From the NCBI GenBank assembly GCA_022562515.1, contig JADFPB010000002.1:1-38096 (forward strand): a DNA stretch of 38,096 nt, read 5' to 3'. This stretch comes from Chloroflexota bacterium. Its GTDB lineage: Bacteria > Chloroflexota > Dehalococcoidia > Lucifugimonadales > Lucifugimonadaceae. Positions 24,177 through 32,465 of this stretch are shown here, piece after piece. Numbering within the stretch: the stretch's first letter is position 1; the number at the start of each line of letters is the position of its first letter. A model generated the notes under the pieces. The model had not been told where the DNA came from and ran no database searches. It saw only the letters and a list, made by a program, of their open reading frames with translations. The position numbers and the translations under genes are program-made.

Positions 24177-24656
24177 ATGTCTGATATCACAGGATCCGCT
24201 GAATTGCAGCTGGTCGTCTTTGATTTGAACGAAGAGGCCTACGGCGTAGAAATCGAATCTGTTCGAGAGATCATTCGCCTGCAGGAGATCACCCGCGTGC
24301 CTCGCACGCCGGACTTCGTGGAAGGTGTCATCAACCTTCGGGGCAAGGTGATTCCGGTGGTCGAATTGCGCAAGCGATTCGGTCTGCCCGTCGCGGAGCG
24401 TAATTCCGAAACTCGGATCGTCAACGTTGACATCGGCGGCCAGGAGATCGGAATGGTCGTCGACGCGGTGACAGAGGTCCTGCGCATTACCAGTGACTCA
24501 GTCGAGCCGCCGTCTTCGGTGATCACCACCGCGGATTCGGGATACCTCAAGGGCATCGCGAAACTGCCCGACCGACTGATCATCATGCTGGACCTGGACC
24601 AGGTACTCAGCACGGATGAGCAGAAAGCGCTTTCCGGCACCGATCTCGCCGCGTAG
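24177..24656 (+). CDS. cheW: chemotaxis protein CheW
   Basis: QLVVFDLNEEAYGVEIESVREIIRLQEITRVPRTPDFVEGVINLRGKVIPVVELRKRFGLP. Confidence 0.96.
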   Translation: MSDITGSAELQLVVFDLNEEAYGVEIESVREIIRLQEITRVPRTPDFVEGVINLRGKVIPVVELRKRFGLPVAERNSETRIVNVDIGGQEIGMVVDAVTEVLRITSDSVEPPSSVITTADSGYLKGIAKLPDRLIIMLDLDQVLSTDEQKALSGTDLAA

Positions 24657-24827: not shown

Positions 24828-26924
24828 ATGAACCTGGATCCTGACATAACCCAGGAGGACTTGCAGGTCTTTCTGGACGAGGCGGAAGAGCAACTCCAGT
24901 TGCTTGACACGAACATCGTCGGCATCGAAGGCCGTGATGATAATTCCGACCTGATACAGGAGATATTCAGGGCTGCGCATACTCTGAAGGGCTCTTCAGC
25001 GATGCTCGGCTATCGGGAGATGACCGACCTGGGCCACGCGATGGAGACATTGCTGGACAAGGTCCGCAAGGGTTCCCTGGCGCCGAGCACGAACGTCGTG
25101 GATGCTCTGCTGCACAGCCTCGACAAGCTTCGTCTTCTGAAGGACGCGCTTATCGAACCGCCTGAGGCGCCCATCGACGTGTCCGGCGTGGTGGCGGAAC
25201 TCATCGCGGCCGGCGGCGGGGAGAGCAGCGAGCCGGCGAAAAAGACCACCGTGGAGGGGCTGAGGCTGACCGATGAGGAACAGGCACACGTTGCCGAACT
25301 TCTGAAGGCCGACGTGAAGGCCAAAGCTCTCCTGGTGCGGGCGACCCTGATCGATGAGTGTGAATGGGGCGCGGTCCGCTGGTTCCAGGTACTTGGCGAA
25401 CTCGCCGAAGCGGGTCAGCTCATTGCCTCCAATCCAACTCAGCACCAGATCGAAGAGGAAGAGGCAGGCACGAGCCTTGAAGCTCTGGTCCTGGGCGAGA
25501 TCGACTCAGAGGAACTGGTTCAACGCGTGAGAGCGGTTGCCGACATCGCGACCGCCGAGATAGAGGAATACAAAGACGCGTCTGAAATCAAGGCTTCATC
25601 CGCTGGAGCGGGCGCCGGGACCAAGACGGCGCAGACAATCCGGGTGGATGTCGAGCGTCTTGATCTCATGATGAATGTCATCGGCGAACTGGTCATCGAC
25701 CGCGGCAGGATCACCCAGATCGGCCGGGACCTCGAGGCCAAGTACCGGGGCGAGCCGCTGGTGAAGGAACTGTCTAAGACCTCGGCCCATATCGTCAAGG
25801 TCGTGACCGAACTCCAGGATCGCGTGATGGAGATTCGGATGCTGCCCATCGGCACCGTATTTGGCGGATTCCCGCGGTTGGTCAGGGATCTGGCTCAAAG
25901 CCTGGATAAGAAAGTCGAGTTCGTGGTCACGGGTCAAGATACTGAGATAGACAGGACGGTCATAGAGCGGGTTCGAGACCCCATCGTCCACTTGTTGAGG
26001 AATGCGGTGGATCACGGTCTGGAAGCACCGGAAGAGCGGCGCAAGGCCAGGAAGAGCGAGAAAGGTGTTCTCACCCTGTCCGCGTACCACGAGCAGGGCC
26101 ACATAGTGATCGAGGTCGGTGACGATGGCAGAGGCATAGATCTGGACGCGCTGCGAGCTTCAGCCGTAAAGAATGGGTTCCTGACCCAGGATGCGGCCTC
26201 GAAATTGAGTGACCAGGAGGCACGCGAACTGATTTTCCTGGCCGGCAACTCCACCGCCAAAAAGACCACGGACGTTTCCGGCCGCGGCGTCGGCATGGAC
26301 ATAGTCAGGTCCAATATCGAAGTGATCGGCGGCTTCGTCAGCGTCGAGAGCGAAGTGGGCAGGGGAACCACGCTCAAGCTTCGGTTGCCGCTGACTCTTG
26401 CTACGGTCCAATCATTGCTTGTCCTGTCGGACGGAGACGTGTTCGCGGTCCCACTTGTCTATGTGCTGGAGACGAGGAGAGTGCCGAAGGATGAAGTCCA
26501 CATTGTGAACCACCACGAGGTTTTCAATCTTCGCGGGTCCGTCCTACCGCTTGTTCGGCTGACTGATGCCGTTGGCTGGGCGGATCGGCGAAGCCAGCGG
26601 GCGGACGACGAGTACGTCGTCGTGGTCCGGTCTGGAGAAACTCAGATCGGCCTTGTGGTAGACACGGTCATAGAGCCCCAGGAGATTGTTGTGAAGCCGC
26701 TCGGCGGCTTCATTGGCGACGTACGCGGCGTGGCCGGGGCGAGCATTCTTGGCGACGGGCGGGTGGCTCTCATCCTGGATATCGGGACGATGATCAACTC
26801 GGCCCGCCAGCAAGGCGCTTTCGCCGCCGCCCGCTCTCTGAAAGCGGAGAGTGCAGCTGAAGGCGGTGTTGAATCTGTCGAGACCCGGTCTGATGAGGAG
26901 CGAGTGGAATTGACGGCGGTATAG
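24828..26924 (+). CDS. cheA: chemotaxis histidine kinase CheA
   Basis: P1 HPt FRAAHTLKGSSAMLGY; H-ATPase HLLRNAVDHGLEAPEERRKARK, DDGRGID, GRGVGMDIVRSNIE; CheW-like C-terminus. Confidence 0.96.
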   Translation: MNLDPDITQEDLQVFLDEAEEQLQLLDTNIVGIEGRDDNSDLIQEIFRAAHTLKGSSAMLGYREMTDLGHAMETLLDKVRKGSLAPSTNVVDALLHSLDKLRLLKDALIEPPEAPIDVSGVVAELIAAGGGESSEPAKKTTVEGLRLTDEEQAHVAELLKADVKAKALLVRATLIDECEWGAVRWFQVLGELAEAGQLIASNPTQHQIEEEEAGTSLEALVLGEIDSEELVQRVRAVADIATAEIEEYKDASEIKASSAGAGAGTKTAQTIRVDVERLDLMMNVIGELVIDRGRITQIGRDLEAKYRGEPLVKELSKTSAHIVKVVTELQDRVMEIRMLPIGTVFGGFPRLVRDLAQSLDKKVEFVVTGQDTEIDRTVIERVRDPIVHLLRNAVDHGLEAPEERRKARKSEKGVLTLSAYHEQGHIVIEVGDDGRGIDLDALRASAVKNGFLTQDAASKLSDQEARELIFLAGNSTAKKTTDVSGRGVGMDIVRSNIEVIGGFVSVESEVGRGTTLKLRLPLTLATVQSLLVLSDGDVFAVPLVYVLETRRVPKDEVHIVNHHEVFNLRGSVLPLVRLTDAVGWADRRSQRADDEYVVVVRSGETQIGLVVDTVIEPQEIVVKPLGGFIGDVRGVAGASILGDGRVALILDIGTMINSARQQGAFAAARSLKAESAAEGGVESVETRSDEERVELTAV

Positions 26925-26952: not shown

Positions 26953-27573
26953 ATGTTCAGCGCTAATTCAACGGCCTCATCGGCCACCTCGTCCGAAATC
27001 TGGACGGGCCTGGTCGCGGGAGGCATCACGCACGCGATCTCAGGCCTTGGCGACCTGGTTGGTGAGGAAGTCAGAACGACGTTTCTTTCGCCAAGGACCA
27101 TGCCGGCTTCTAAGGTGAATGAACTTATCGGCGGTCCGGAGGCGGATGTGGTGGCTATCCACCTCGGGGTCAGCGGCGAGGCAACCGGCCACATTCTGTT
27201 GATGTTTAAACCCGTGACCGCCTTCGATCTGGTGAACATGCTGTTGGACCGGGAGCCGGGATCGGATTGTGAGCTGGACGAGCTCGCGATATCGACGATG
27301 GGCGAGATGGGCAACGTGATGGGGTCTTACTTCCTGAGCGCTCTGGGCGACACGACGGGAGTGCGGCTAATGCCGTCTCCACCGACAGTAATGATGGATA
27401 TGGCTGGCGCTGTGATCGACGCAGCCGTCGCCGACATCATGGCCGATACCGACGACATTCTGGTGGTGGAGACGCGTTTTGGGACGGCCAACCAGCAGAT
27501 CAACGGGATTTTCCTCGTCCTTCCCAATCCGAGACTAAAAGAGGTTCTGCTTGACCGATGGGCGAAGCAGTAA
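26953..27573 (+). CDS. cheC: CheC-like CheY-P phosphatase
   Basis: DELAISTMGEMGNVMGSYFLSALGD (S-x3-E-x2-N phosphatase motif); overlaps cheD. Confidence 0.82.
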   Translation: MFSANSTASSATSSEIWTGLVAGGITHAISGLGDLVGEEVRTTFLSPRTMPASKVNELIGGPEADVVAIHLGVSGEATGHILLMFKPVTAFDLVNMLLDREPGSDCELDELAISTMGEMGNVMGSYFLSALGDTTGVRLMPSPPTVMMDMAGAVIDAAVADIMADTDDILVVETRFGTANQQINGIFLVLPNPRLKEVLLDRWAKQ

Positions 27574-28082
27574 TGGTGGCGGTGGATAAAGCAACCGAAA
27601 AAAGTAGTGTTTCAGTGGGTCTTGGAGAGATGAAGGTTTTGAAGAACTCTGACGCCACACTCGCCTGCCTGGGGCTTGGATCCTGTGTGGGTGTTGCCGC
27701 ATGGGACCCCGTGGCGCGGGTCGCCGGGATGGCGCACGTAGTGCTGCCGTCCTCTGAGGGGAGAAGGCCCGACTCCGGCGCCAAATATGCAGATCGAGCT
27801 ATTCCGAAGTTGATTCAGGCCGTGAAAGATCAGGGGGGCCTCAAGTCCCGGCTGGTCATCAAGATCGCGGGGGGTGCGCAGATGGCGCTTTCGACAGCGA
27901 ATGATCCGATATTCAAGATCGGCGAGCAGAACGTCAACGCGGTTTTAGAGGCGATAGGTCGAGAAGGCCTCAAAGTTGAGGTTGAAGAGATTGGCGGTAA
28001 TCGCGGCCGGACGCTGCGACTGAATGCTGCCAATGGTGAGACACAAGTGTCGGTGGCCGGAGAGCCACCGCGAAAGCTGTAG
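27558..28082 (+). CDS. cheD: chemotaxis glutamine deamidase CheD
   Basis: LACLGLGSCVGVAAWDPVARVAGMAHVVLPSSEG with catalytic Cys/His context; alternative start ATG 27573 overlaps the cheC stop (TAATG). Confidence 0.93.
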   Translation: MGEAVMVAVDKATEKSSVSVGLGEMKVLKNSDATLACLGLGSCVGVAAWDPVARVAGMAHVVLPSSEGRRPDSGAKYADRAIPKLIQAVKDQGGLKSRLVIKIAGGAQMALSTANDPIFKIGEQNVNAVLEAIGREGLKVEVEEIGGNRGRTLRLNAANGETQVSVAGEPPRKL

Positions 28083-28095
28083 GGAGGAACGGGAC

Positions 28096-28452
28096 ATGCC
28101 AAGTGTCATGGTGGTTGATGACGCGGCGTTCATGCGCATGAAGGCGACAAAGATGCTCAGCGAAGTGGGCTACACCGTCTCCGAAGCGTCGACGGGCGCA
28201 GAGGCCGTTGAGGCCTACAAAGCTCAGGCACCTGACTGCGTACTTCTGGATATCACCATGCCGGACATGGACGGGCTCACCGCCCTGAAGCAGATCCGGG
28301 AGCATGATCCGAACGCTCGGATCGCGATGGTGACGGCCATGGGCCAGCAGTCGATCGTTATGGAAGCTCTGAAGGCCGGAGCGATGGATTTTGTTGTAAA
28401 GCCATTCACGGCGGACCGCGTCATTGGCGCAGTCAAAAAGATGATCGGGTGA
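28096..28452 (+). CDS. cheY: response regulator CheY (single receiver)
   Basis: MPSVMVVDDAAFMRMK...CVLLDITMPDMDGL...MVTAMGQQS...KPFTADRV; SD GGAGG before ATG 28096. Confidence 0.93.
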   Translation: MPSVMVVDDAAFMRMKATKMLSEVGYTVSEASTGAEAVEAYKAQAPDCVLLDITMPDMDGLTALKQIREHDPNARIAMVTAMGQQSIVMEALKAGAMDFVVKPFTADRVIGAVKKMIG

Positions 28453-28520: not shown

Positions 28521-29582
28521 ATGGTGAAAGTCCTTGTGGTAGATGACTCAGCATTTGCGCGCTCCAGGATCGTCAAAGTTCTTAGTGACTCGCCCGGCCT
28601 CCAAGTAGTGGGGCAGGCCGTTGACGGCGCCGATGCGATACGGCAGACGAAGGAGTTGCGACCTGATGTCGTGACGCTTGATATCGAGATGCCGGTGATG
28701 GACGGCTTGATGGCCCTCGAGCAGATGATGCGCGAGTGCCCCACGCCCGTCGTCATGGTGAGTTCTCTCACCGGGCCGCAAACGGACGCGACAGTTGCGG
28801 CTCTCCAGCTTGGCGCAGTCGATTTCTTCCTCAAGCCGTCTATTGCACTTCCGGCCGGCACTGGTGTGACGCAGAGCGACCTGTCGAAGACGGTCATGAA
28901 CGCCGCGACGGTAAAGGTCCGCCACCTGAACGGGAAAAGCCCGAAAAGCCTTATAAACCTGGAAGTGCGGCCCGTTACCATGCCGCCGCGTGAATCCAGG
29001 AGCAGCAGGCCGGGAAGTATTGACCAGGTGGTCTTGATCGGGTCATCGACAGGCGGCCCCAGGGCGCTCGCGGAAGTGATTCCAAGGCTTCCTCGCGATC
29101 TACCGGCTGCCGTGATGGTGGTACAGCACATGCCTGCGGGATTCACGAAATCCCTGGCCGATCGCCTCAACCGGACATCCGCGTTGCAGGTTTCCGAGGC
29201 CGCGGATGGCGATCGGATTGGCGCCGGCAAGGTGCTGCTGGCTCCGGGCGGTTACCACATGATCGTGGATAGGGCCGGGAAGATCTCACTGGACGAAGGC
29301 CCACCGGTTTGTGGCGTGCGGCCTTCGGTGGACGTTACGGCGCTATCAGCGGTTGAGGCCTTTGGCAAAAACATCAGGGCGATGATTCTCACGGGAATGG
29401 GCTCGGATGGAACGAACGGTGCGTCCGCCATCAAAGCGGCCGGGGGGAAAGTGTCCGTTGAGCACGAGTCGACGTGCGCGGTCTACGGCATGCCGAGAAG
29501 CGTTGTCGAGGCCGGCTGGGCCGACGATATCGTGCCACTGGACGAATGCGCCGACCAGATCGTGAAGATGTGCTCGGATTAG
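28521..29582 (+). CDS. cheB: chemotaxis methylesterase CheB
   Basis: Receiver MVKVLVVDDSAFARS... plus GSSTGGPRALAEVIPRLP, VQHMPAGFTKSLADRL, LLAPGGYHM, LTGMGSDGTNG. ATG at 28521 with GGAG SD. Confidence 0.96.
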   Translation: MVKVLVVDDSAFARSRIVKVLSDSPGLQVVGQAVDGADAIRQTKELRPDVVTLDIEMPVMDGLMALEQMMRECPTPVVMVSSLTGPQTDATVAALQLGAVDFFLKPSIALPAGTGVTQSDLSKTVMNAATVKVRHLNGKSPKSLINLEVRPVTMPPRESRSSRPGSIDQVVLIGSSTGGPRALAEVIPRLPRDLPAAVMVVQHMPAGFTKSLADRLNRTSALQVSEAADGDRIGAGKVLLAPGGYHMIVDRAGKISLDEGPPVCGVRPSVDVTALSAVEAFGKNIRAMILTGMGSDGTNGASAIKAAGGKVSVEHESTCAVYGMPRSVVEAGWADDIVPLDECADQIVKMCSD

Positions 29583-29601: not shown

Positions 29602-30411
29602 ATGATAAGCGAAAGCGATTTCGAAATCCTGAAAGTCAAGATAAACCAGGTTCTTGGCATAGATCTTGGCTACTACAAGCCCCAGCAGATGCAGCGGCGC
29701 CTGTCTGGTTATCTCACGCGCTTGCATCTCGATACCCGCGGGCTTTGCGGCCTCATCGGCAGAGATCACGAAGCGGCTGCGGAATTACGAGAGTTCATCA
29801 CCATCAACGTTTCGGAATTTTTCAGAGACCCGGCGCAGTTCGATATTCTCAAGAAAGTCGCTTTACCAGAGATTCTCGACTCTTCGGGCCAGGTGAAGGT
29901 GTGGAGCGCGGGATGCTCGCATGGCGGCGAGCCCTATTCGGTGGCCATTCTCCTGAACGAACTGGCGCCGGATAAAAATCACCAGGTGTGGGCGACGGAT
30001 ATCGACCGCCAGATCTTGCGGCGCGCCCAGGCTGGTGGACCTTATGCGGAGGCCGATGTTCGCGCAGTGGGCAAGCATCTGCTCCTCAAATACTTCGACA
30101 AGAAGGACACGGAGTTCTGGGCGAAGGATGAGTTGCGGAATATGGTCAAGTTCAAGGAGCTGGATCTGTTGTCCGATCGATTCTCAGTGGGGCTGGACCT
30201 GATCATCTGCCGGAATGTTGTCATCTATTTTTCCGATGAGGCCAAGCGCATGCTGAACGAGCGTTTTTACAGCTCCCTCAAAATGGGAGGTTTCTTTTTC
30301 GTCGGGGGTACTGAGGCGTTGCTTGGCGCGGAGGAAATAGGGTTCAGACGGGTGCAGTCATCGCTTTACCAGAAGGTAACACCGGCAAGTGCAATGCGTG
30401 AGGCAGCGTAG
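29602..30411 (+). CDS. cheR: chemotaxis methyltransferase CheR
   Basis: FITINVSEFFRDPAQF; VKVWSAGCSHGGEPYSVAILL; DLIICRNVVIYFSDEAKRMLNERFYSSLKMGGFFFVGGTEAL. Confidence 0.96.
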   Translation: MISESDFEILKVKINQVLGIDLGYYKPQQMQRRLSGYLTRLHLDTRGLCGLIGRDHEAAAELREFITINVSEFFRDPAQFDILKKVALPEILDSSGQVKVWSAGCSHGGEPYSVAILLNELAPDKNHQVWATDIDRQILRRAQAGGPYAEADVRAVGKHLLLKYFDKKDTEFWAKDELRNMVKFKELDLLSDRFSVGLDLIICRNVVIYFSDEAKRMLNERFYSSLKMGGFFFVGGTEALLGAEEIGFRRVQSSLYQKVTPASAMREAA

Positions 30412-30432: not shown

Positions 30433-31512
30433 ATGAAGCGAATCGGTGCGGCATACGCCCGGGAAGGGATGGTCATCGGGTGGCCTATCTACGACACGGA
30501 TGGGCGGCTGATACTGGACACAGGCGACGAAGTGGACGCCGAAAGCCTGACGCGGATTTCTGAGAACGGAATCGCGGAACTGATCGTCGAGGACTGGCGC
30601 GTGATCGACGTGCCTGTAGAGCCGCTTGTCCCGCCGGCTGAGGAGGCGATGCTGATTCACGGTGTTCGGCAGACCATGGCAAGGCTCCGCGGGGGGAATT
30701 CCCTGTACCGCGAAAACCTGGAGCAGATGGTGCAACACCTCCACCGGATGATCAGGACGATGAGGGGGAGCCTGCTCGGGGAACCCAGCTCGGCCGGGTG
30801 CCTGAACGTGGAAACGTATGACTTCGTTCATCCGGCGAGGGTAGCCGGGCTGTCACTGATTCTTGGCATGGAATACGGCATCGAGGATTCCGAACTGGTT
30901 GTGATGGGCCTGGCGGCGCTGATGATGAACATCGGGTACGTCAAACTGCCGGAAGATGCCCTCATAGTGCCGGGGCCACTCAGTCCGGAAACCTGGCAAG
31001 ACCTCGCTCAACACCCAGAAGCAGGGGCGGAAATCATCGCCGCCATTGATGGAGTGGATGAGAAGGTCGTTCAGGCGATAGCTCAATCACATGAGCGGTT
31101 TGACGGGACCGGGTATCCGAACGGACTCAAAGGTGAGGACATATCGCTGTTCGCGCGGATCCTGGGAATAGTGGACACCTTTTACGCGCTCGTCTCGTTG
31201 CGGCCGCACCGAAAGCCGTTTCTGCCGCACGAGGCGATCGAGTTCGTGATGGCCTATTCGATGGAACTCTTCGATCCTGATCTCGTGGAGCTATTTTCCA
31301 GGAAGGTTCCGCTCTACTCCACTGGAGTCAGTGTGAAGCTGAGTAGCAACGAGACGGGCGTGGTCGCGGATGCGAATCTCGGCCACGTTGGCAGGCCGAT
31401 TGTGCGGATCCTGGTGGACAGATTCGGGGCCGAGGTCAAAAAGCCGTATGAGCTGGATCTGACAGCGCCCGACCAGCAAAGGGAACTGGTAGTTCAGGTG
31501 CTTGATTTCTAA
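30433..31512 (+). CDS. HD-GYP-like domain protein with degenerate HD motif
   Basis: FVHPARVAGLSLILG...MGLAALMMNIGYVKLPEDAL...HPEAGAEIIAAI...SHERFDGTGYPNGLKGEDISLFARILGIVDTFYAL: HD-GYP scaffold but HDIGK is replaced by MNIGY. Confidence 0.85.
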   Translation: MKRIGAAYAREGMVIGWPIYDTDGRLILDTGDEVDAESLTRISENGIAELIVEDWRVIDVPVEPLVPPAEEAMLIHGVRQTMARLRGGNSLYRENLEQMVQHLHRMIRTMRGSLLGEPSSAGCLNVETYDFVHPARVAGLSLILGMEYGIEDSELVVMGLAALMMNIGYVKLPEDALIVPGPLSPETWQDLAQHPEAGAEIIAAIDGVDEKVVQAIAQSHERFDGTGYPNGLKGEDISLFARILGIVDTFYALVSLRPHRKPFLPHEAIEFVMAYSMELFDPDLVELFSRKVPLYSTGVSVKLSSNETGVVADANLGHVGRPIVRILVDRFGAEVKKPYELDLTAPDQQRELVVQVLDF

Positions 31513-32465
31513 TGGCGGATGAAGGCAACAGCGTCCTGTCACAGAACGCCATCGATTCCCTTTTCGGGGATATTCCCGCGGGTGATCCGGTTGTTGACCC
31601 CGGAACGAGCGCGGACGGGGTGACGCGCACCCCGACCGTTGGCGACATGCCGGAGGGGCCGCCTGCCGCCGCGGCAGCCCCTGCGCCTGCTCCCGGGGCC
31701 ACTCCGGCGCCGGCCCCGGCTCAGCAGATGCCGAGTGCCAGGCCATGGCTGCAGGAAGAGCCGTCCGCCGCTGCGCCACCGGCCGAAGCGACTCCGGCCG
31801 CGCCCGCGCCTGGTCTGGCGATGACCGCTGCTCCGCCCGCGGCCCAACCGCCGCCTCAGGCAGTCCCCGTACCTGCCGTCCCGGCGCTCGCCGTCCCACC
31901 CGCCGCTGCAGCGCCGCCTCCCGCACCCGCGGTTCCCCTGGCAGTCGCGCCCAATGTGGCGGCTGTCGCGCCCGTTGCGGCGGGGATATCCGGAGATGAC
32001 GTTGAGGCAATGATCGCTCCATTGCAGGCCACCCTTGCCGCTTATGAGCAGCGGTTCGCCGGCATCGATTCAGCTCTGGCCAGGCTGACCGAAATCGAGA
32101 GCAAGCTCTCTGAACTGGAGAAGTCGTCCGGCCGAGGAGTGGAGCGTCGCGACCTGCAACTGCTCCAGGGCAAAATCATGAAACAGATGCGAAGCGTGAT
32201 AGACAACCTGCAAGCCACGCCCGCGTATGGACTACGGAAGACGTTTGCCTGTTCCGGCTGCGGCGAAGTCGGCAATGTGGCGGTTCGCGTGAAGTGCACG
32301 TCGTGTCAGCGTGAAACGCATGTTGGCTGGTTCCCCGGGGAGGCGGCAGCCCTGCACAAGCCTCAGGCCGGCCGAGGCGGCCGGTCGAACGCTCGGGTGA
32401 AGCCAGCGCCTAACGGCCGTAGGTCGCGGAGATCCCGGCCCGGGCAAGGGCGTGCTCCTCGATAA
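31512..32465 (+). CDS. uncharacterised Pro/Ala-rich protein with FliM-N-like peptide and C-terminal zinc ribbon
   Basis: N-terminus MADEGNSVLSQNAIDSLFGDI; long Ala/Pro linker; predicted coiled coil (ARLTEIESKLSELEKS); CSGCGEVGNVAVRVKCTSCQRETHVGWFP; basic tail. Start overlaps the preceding stop (TAATG). Confidence 0.8.
   Translation: MADEGNSVLSQNAIDSLFGDIPAGDPVVDPGTSADGVTRTPTVGDMPEGPPAAAAAPAPAPGATPAPAPAQQMPSARPWLQEEPSAAAPPAEATPAAPAPGLAMTAAPPAAQPPPQAVPVPAVPALAVPPAAAAPPPAPAVPLAVAPNVAAVAPVAAGISGDDVEAMIAPLQATLAAYEQRFAGIDSALARLTEIESKLSELEKSSGRGVERRDLQLLQGKIMKQMRSVIDNLQATPAYGLRKTFACSGCGEVGNVAVRVKCTSCQRETHVGWFPGEAAALHKPQAGRGGRSNARVKPAPNGRRSRRSRPGQGRAPR

Follow-up and report, generated by a model that had tools for sequence, protein, structure and literature searches.

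The N-terminal peptide of the flagellar switch protein FliM (FliM_N; structure 1F4V) docks in the alpha4/alpha5 groove of CheY, whereas the archaeal protein CheF (PF04283), a PH-domain and CTD protein that carries the CheY-P signal to the archaellum switch, contacts CheY through alpha1 and loops, close to where it is phosphorylated (Altegoer et al., PMC9126983). In B. subtilis FliY, a FliM-type peptide is found beside a CheC-like phosphatase domain. Archaella are also encoded in the Chloroflexota, and the filament and arl genes have been described for Litorilinea aerophila and Candidatus Lucifugimonas marina, strain JH1073 of the latter being reported to encode archaella (PMC10444878); no chemotaxis adaptor is named in these papers. 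The Chloroflexota lack CheF, and it has been suggested that another component might have evolved to pass the signal (Nat Microbiol 2025; PMC12488501). We searched the open-access full-text literature and found no paper that names the component linking chemotaxis to the archaellum, although a prior description elsewhere is not excluded.

Here we describe a gene within a 38,096-nucleotide stretch of Chloroflexota DNA (hereafter the window) whose product is the best candidate yet for this missing link and most probably is that component, with contact to the motor inferred from genomic context only. We refer to the product as the candidate adaptor, or simply the adaptor.

Results

The che operon and its last gene

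The adaptor gene lies at the end of an operon with the order cheW-cheA-cheC/X-cheD-cheY-cheB-cheR-HD_5-adaptor (Table 1), confirming and extending the initial annotation, which had placed it last in an operon with cheY, cheC and cheD. The open reading frame begins with an ATG that overlaps the preceding stop codon (TAATG), and its position in the operon is the same in relatives, showing that ORF 31512-32465 is real. A survey for proteins combining the peptide with a zinc ribbon next to cheR had also been proposed, and this architecture recurs in relatives at the corresponding place in the operon. Scanning for promoters and terminators gave no signal above chance.

The HD-GYP-type protein encoded between cheR and the adaptor (window 30433-31512; homologues in L024-L035 and L074-L077) is conserved, and genomes G036 and G060 are without the gene. 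Its HD dyad is degenerate in all aligned homologues, reading MN, MD, EN, QN or KD, and the HHExxxGxGYP motif is largely retained; it is possibly an inactive or a c-di-GMP-sensing HD-GYP protein.

Table 1. Features of the che operon and of the candidate adaptor, in window coordinates.
Feature	Coordinates	Strand	Basis or remark
cheW	24177..24656	+	Sequence, conserved gene order
cheA	24828..26924	+	Sequence, conserved gene order
cheC/cheX phosphatase	26953..27573	+	PF13690 above cut-off, PF04509 weak
cheD	27558..28082	+	PF03975
cheY, presumed ligand of adaptor peptide	28096..28452	+	PF00072, 7e-33
cheB	28521..29582	+	PF01339 match at 29031-29561
cheR	29602..30411	+	Sequence, conserved gene order
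HD_5/HD-GYP-type protein, degenerate HD dyad	30433..31512	+	Gene upstream of adaptor
Candidate adaptor P0001, 317 aa	31512..32465	+	Last gene of che operon; same position in relatives
Putative N-terminal FliM_N-like CheY-binding peptide, residues 1-21, MADEGNSVLSQNAIDSLFGDI	31512..31574	+	Conserved in all orthologues; profile matches
Linker, Pro/Ala-rich, poorly conserved, residues 22-157	31575..31982	+	Mean column identity 0.38
Coiled-coil region, residues 158-235	31983..32216	+	Two helices in low-confidence AlphaFold2 model; profile matches
4-Cys zinc-ribbon-like domain, residues 241-275	32232..32336	+	Alignment; beta strands in AlphaFold2 model
Arg/Pro-rich tail	32337..32462	+	Conserved only in the window's genus

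A divergent family with a conserved N-terminus

Searching 149 relatives with the coiled-coil/ribbon part of the adaptor as query gave matches in 16 genomes. Thirteen are long forms, counting the window's own protein, to which they are 28-77% identical, and one is encoded by the cultured SAR202 strain Candidatus Lucifugimonas marina JH1073 (G014, CP046147.1). Columns that are invariant among the long forms include L9, Q11, I14 and D15 in the peptide, and C247, C250, C262, C265, G272 and W273 in the ribbon. Mean column identity is 0.86 over residues 7-18, 0.38 in the linker, 0.57 in the coiled coil and 0.65 in the ribbon, and the peptide is thus the best conserved region of a divergent family.

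What the initial annotation had read from the sequence alone was upheld. The FliM/FliY-type motif is present in all 13 long-form orthologues, whereas its lack of conservation had been named as a refuting outcome; the descriptions given of the Pro/Ala linker, the coiled coil and the CxxC..CxxC ribbon hold; and there is no C-ring domain, with no FliM or FliMN_C match in the protein. The Arg-rich tail held for the window's protein, but within the family it is restricted to the window's genus.

An AlphaFold2 model of residues 158-277 contains two helices and beta strands at low confidence (pLDDT 63, pTM 0.38), and profile matches are to trimeric or GCN4-type coiled coils and, weakly, to ribbons including those of Rpb12 and uS14. 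Neither Pfam nor NCBIfam has a family that scores above cut-off for the adaptor or is consistent across its orthologues; matches to DUF1451, ZZ, DUF5402 and coiled-coil models were weak and inconsistent and were rejected. No plasmid homologue was found. Weak matches of the coiled-coil/ribbon profile elsewhere in the phylum proved on inspection to be short zinc-ribbon proteins (G395, G310 and G443), a coiled coil and a kinase (G251 and G366), and the remainder were dismissed on score and ORF length.

Several variants of the architecture were seen. Four genomes (G001, G015, G024 and, as a second copy, G002) encode a shorter coiled-coil/ribbon paralogue that lacks the peptide (L034:5707-6189, L037:2208-2744, L038:9429-9998 and L039:5198-5626); all are archaellated, and two of the four paralogues have an archaellin gene within about 3 kb. 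In G014 and G071 a second gene in tandem stands between those for the HD protein and the adaptor (L031:8250-8594 on the plus strand, L032:10730-11089 on the minus strand); its product has a coiled coil and the FliM-like peptide MTSDSILSQDAIDALLAG but lacks the ribbon. Inspection of G036 and G060 revealed a peptide-bearing protein that lacks the ribbon, which therefore cannot be essential everywhere.

Resemblance to FliM and the presumed CheY ligand

The adaptor N-terminus carries VLSQNAIDSLF, a FliM-type CheY-binding motif that matched none of 2,000,000 random 25-mers. The profile A2, built from 15 N-termini, was searched against 177,635 distinct PDB sequences with matches reported at E<=10, and the single match was to residues 2-17 of FliM (E=0.0017). 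In 301 Chloroflexota genomes the same profile gave 15 matches at E<=0.05, eleven of them to FliM/FliN N-termini in flagellated genomes (for example the FliM of G372, MASDNAVLTQREIDALLSADVS), two to the adaptor family (G000 and G230) and two to unrelated internal stretches. Within four adaptor genomes it found the adaptor genes only (E<=6e-9), the next match being at 0.15. The 22-aa peptides alone had no meaningful match in Pfam. The adaptor satisfies the LSQxEIDALL pattern of the FliM N-terminal peptide with one caveat: most SAR202-family members have Ala for the Glu of EIDALL, which the more distant members keep.

Beyond the peptide the likeness ends. We found in the adaptor no Pfam match to the FliM middle (CheC-like) domain, no FliMN_C domain, no CheF-arch domain (PF04283), and neither the CheC-like phosphatase domain nor the FliN domain of FliY-type proteins.

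The nearest solved structures to the operon's CheY are the P. horikoshii and T. maritima CheY proteins. Across the adaptor genomes CheY keeps AMGQQ..V..A...GA.DF.VKPF, as in T. maritima (alpha4-beta5-alpha5), with one substitution (AMGQR) in G214; the archaeal protein has AVGQE and GY at the corresponding positions. Since this CheY sequence is of the FliM-binding type and FliM_N binds in the groove (PMC9126983), flagellum-type docking on an archaellum is predicted. There are no binding data, and that the peptide binds CheY-P is an inference, albeit a strong one.

Archaella, flagellar switch proteins and CheF

The window's own genome has no FliM/FliN, as judged by the absence of any FliMN_C domain in a genome search, and no archaeal CheF. 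CheF is also absent from the 148 relatives, in a search that did match three of the control archaea. The genome does contain 12 archaellin matches and, on contig C76, an arlB-CDE-G-F-F-H-I-J cluster comprising an archaellin, a protein at the ArlCDE position, ArlG, two ArlF-like proteins, ArlH (KaiC-like), ArlI (T2SSE) and ArlJ. ArlCDE has no Pfam match and was assigned by position and by resemblance to published loci. With an archaellum present and both FliM/FliN and CheF absent, the archaellum is the probable target of an output adaptor. The initial annotation had proposed a search for flagellar genes, and the outcome supplies a likely target that it lacked.

In several families the archaellum cluster has conserved histidine kinase and LuxR/receiver-type regulator genes at its sides (L040:3773-8671; L076/L077 next to arl), which may control archaellum expression. 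Two clusters contain two consecutive ArlI-like ATPase genes (G214:C5:13018-16563 in L074; G178:C1, L093:9275-12809).

Co-occurrence of che operon, archaellum and adaptor

All 16 ribbon-family genomes encode archaellins; among the 148 genomes as a whole, 46 do (hypergeometric 9e-10, uncorrected for phylogeny). The che operon is intact in thirteen relatives, and archaellins and a peptide-bearing protein are present in 13/13; eleven of these proteins came from the family search, and two, the ribbon-less forms of G036 and G060, from inspection. CheB matches in G105, where no intact operon was seen on inspection, and in G115, which fell under the curated cut-off, were excluded. The peptide protein was confirmed in place behind cheR or the HD gene in 12 of the 13; in G068 the adaptor contig starts inside cheR. 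Two further CheC/CheX-like ORFs directly follow the adaptor in G133 (L030:145-1145).

In the phylum sample, reduced for the archaellin test by about 14 genomes of duplicate genera, archaellins above cut-off occur in 4 of 76 non-flagellated CheB-positive genomes. Of these four, G000, G214 and G230 have a che operon, each with the adaptor; G178 combines an arl cluster with a CheB domain inside a 991-aa hybrid and has neither a che operon nor an adaptor. The distribution expected of an adaptor, present where che and arl coexist and absent without them, is thus what we see in a search that did not cover ribbon-less forms in che-less genomes, with G038 and G072 as exceptions. Both encode an intact adaptor with its peptide (L033:8815-9741, L036:1761-2549); the place expected for the che operon is taken by an ABC-transporter or MFS gene, and no CheB was detected. 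The che genes could be on unassembled sequence, or the adaptor might work with another CheY-like regulator.

G214 and G230 belong to different families of the same class, and in both the che operon, with the adaptor as its last gene, adjoins arlB-CDE-G-F-H-I-J. The order is cheW-cheA-cheC-cheD-(MCPs in G230)-cheY-cheB-cheR-HD-adaptor, with the adaptor at the arl junction. The two blocks converge in G214, and in G230 they share a strand and are separated by regulator genes.

Discussion

The adaptor shares with FliM the peptide sequence, its extreme N-terminal position and a flexible linker behind it, but lacks the middle domain and FliMN_C and is encoded in a genome that has archaella and no flagellar C-ring. 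Like FliY it places a FliM-type peptide on a different body, which in FliY is made of CheC-like and FliN domains and here of a coiled coil and zinc ribbon. With CheF it shares an inferred role, from CheY-P to the archaellum switch, but no sequence match, and the FliM_N mode of CheY binding differs from that of CheF (PMC9126983). We consider it likely that the adaptor represents a new protein family, homologous to neither CheF nor FliM outside the peptide and, by inference, working like them. The motor that it is proposed to serve is the system already described from Litorilinea aerophila and Candidatus Lucifugimonas marina.

The initial annotation had suggested a CheY-P-responsive output adaptor replacing the flagellar switch. 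This is supported, with CheY binding and motor contact both inferred. In the mechanism we propose, CheY-P from the same operon would dock on the FliM_N-like peptide and the long linker would act as a tether, as inferred from FliM biochemistry; the coiled coil and ribbon would bind the Arl switch, probably ArlCDE, a step inferred from context only. The adaptor would thereby set the direction of archaellum rotation, rotational switching being itself inferred, and the adaptor would take the role that CheF has in archaea while binding CheY as the bacterial flagellar switch does.

What we observed directly is the conserved peptide, the lack of FliM/FliN and CheF alongside archaella, the co-occurrence of the gene with che and archaellum, and the clusters in which che, adaptor and arl adjoin. 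Against the adaptor reading stand the lack of binding or motility data, the low confidence of the AlphaFold2 model, the Glu to Ala change, the ribbon-less proteins of G036 and G060, and the absence of adjacent che genes in G038 and G072.

Among other explanations, the least improbable is that the peptide does bind CheY-P but the protein serves as a CheY-P buffer or as a phosphatase scaffold toward CheC/CheX, with an unknown protein contacting the motor. The presence of cheC/cheX and cheD in the operon and the extra CheC/X-like ORFs of G133 favor this; however, the adaptor has no phosphatase domain, the output link would be left without a candidate, and the che-adaptor-arl junctions of G214 and G230 would be unexplained, so that we think it unlikely.

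We regard it as very unlikely that the adaptor carries the signal to a different output, whether type IV/Tad pili or transcription through the ribbon and Arg-rich tail. Pilus-type ATPases are encoded in nearly all of these genomes, many transcription proteins contain zinc ribbons, and Rpb12 and uS14 are among the weak matches to the ribbon; but ribbon-family matches among relatives are confined to archaellin-bearing genomes, and arl and che are adjacent in two families. Pili and nucleic acid were among the targets suggested by the initial annotation, and both are now less likely given that the gene tracks che and the archaellum and that the Arg-rich tail is not conserved; the tail being limited to one genus, nucleic-acid binding is rejected as a family trait. 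Less probable still is that the resemblance to FliM_N is convergent and that the peptide binds a partner other than CheY. The motif is short and most SAR202-family members have Ala in place of the conserved FliM Glu, but the only PDB match is FliM, the genomic matches are mainly FliM/FliN N-termini, and the peptide is at the extreme N-terminus of a protein encoded in a cheY operon.

On the preferred reading, that of an output adaptor to the archaellum, a bolder interpretation can be offered, toward which we lean only slightly: that the Chloroflexota took an archaeal rotary motor without keeping CheF, and that the CheY-docking peptide of a bacterial flagellar switch protein was transferred to a new scaffold of coiled coil and zinc ribbon, which connected bacterial chemotaxis to an archaeal motor. 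The question of how the bacterial archaellum is controlled by chemotaxis has already been posed in print (PMC12488501), and the adaptor provides one concrete gene, with the CheY at 28096-28452 as its predicted ligand and L9, Q11, I14 and D15 as residues to mutate. If this is correct, it shows how moving a docking peptide of roughly 15 residues can join two machines that are unrelated and come from different domains of life.
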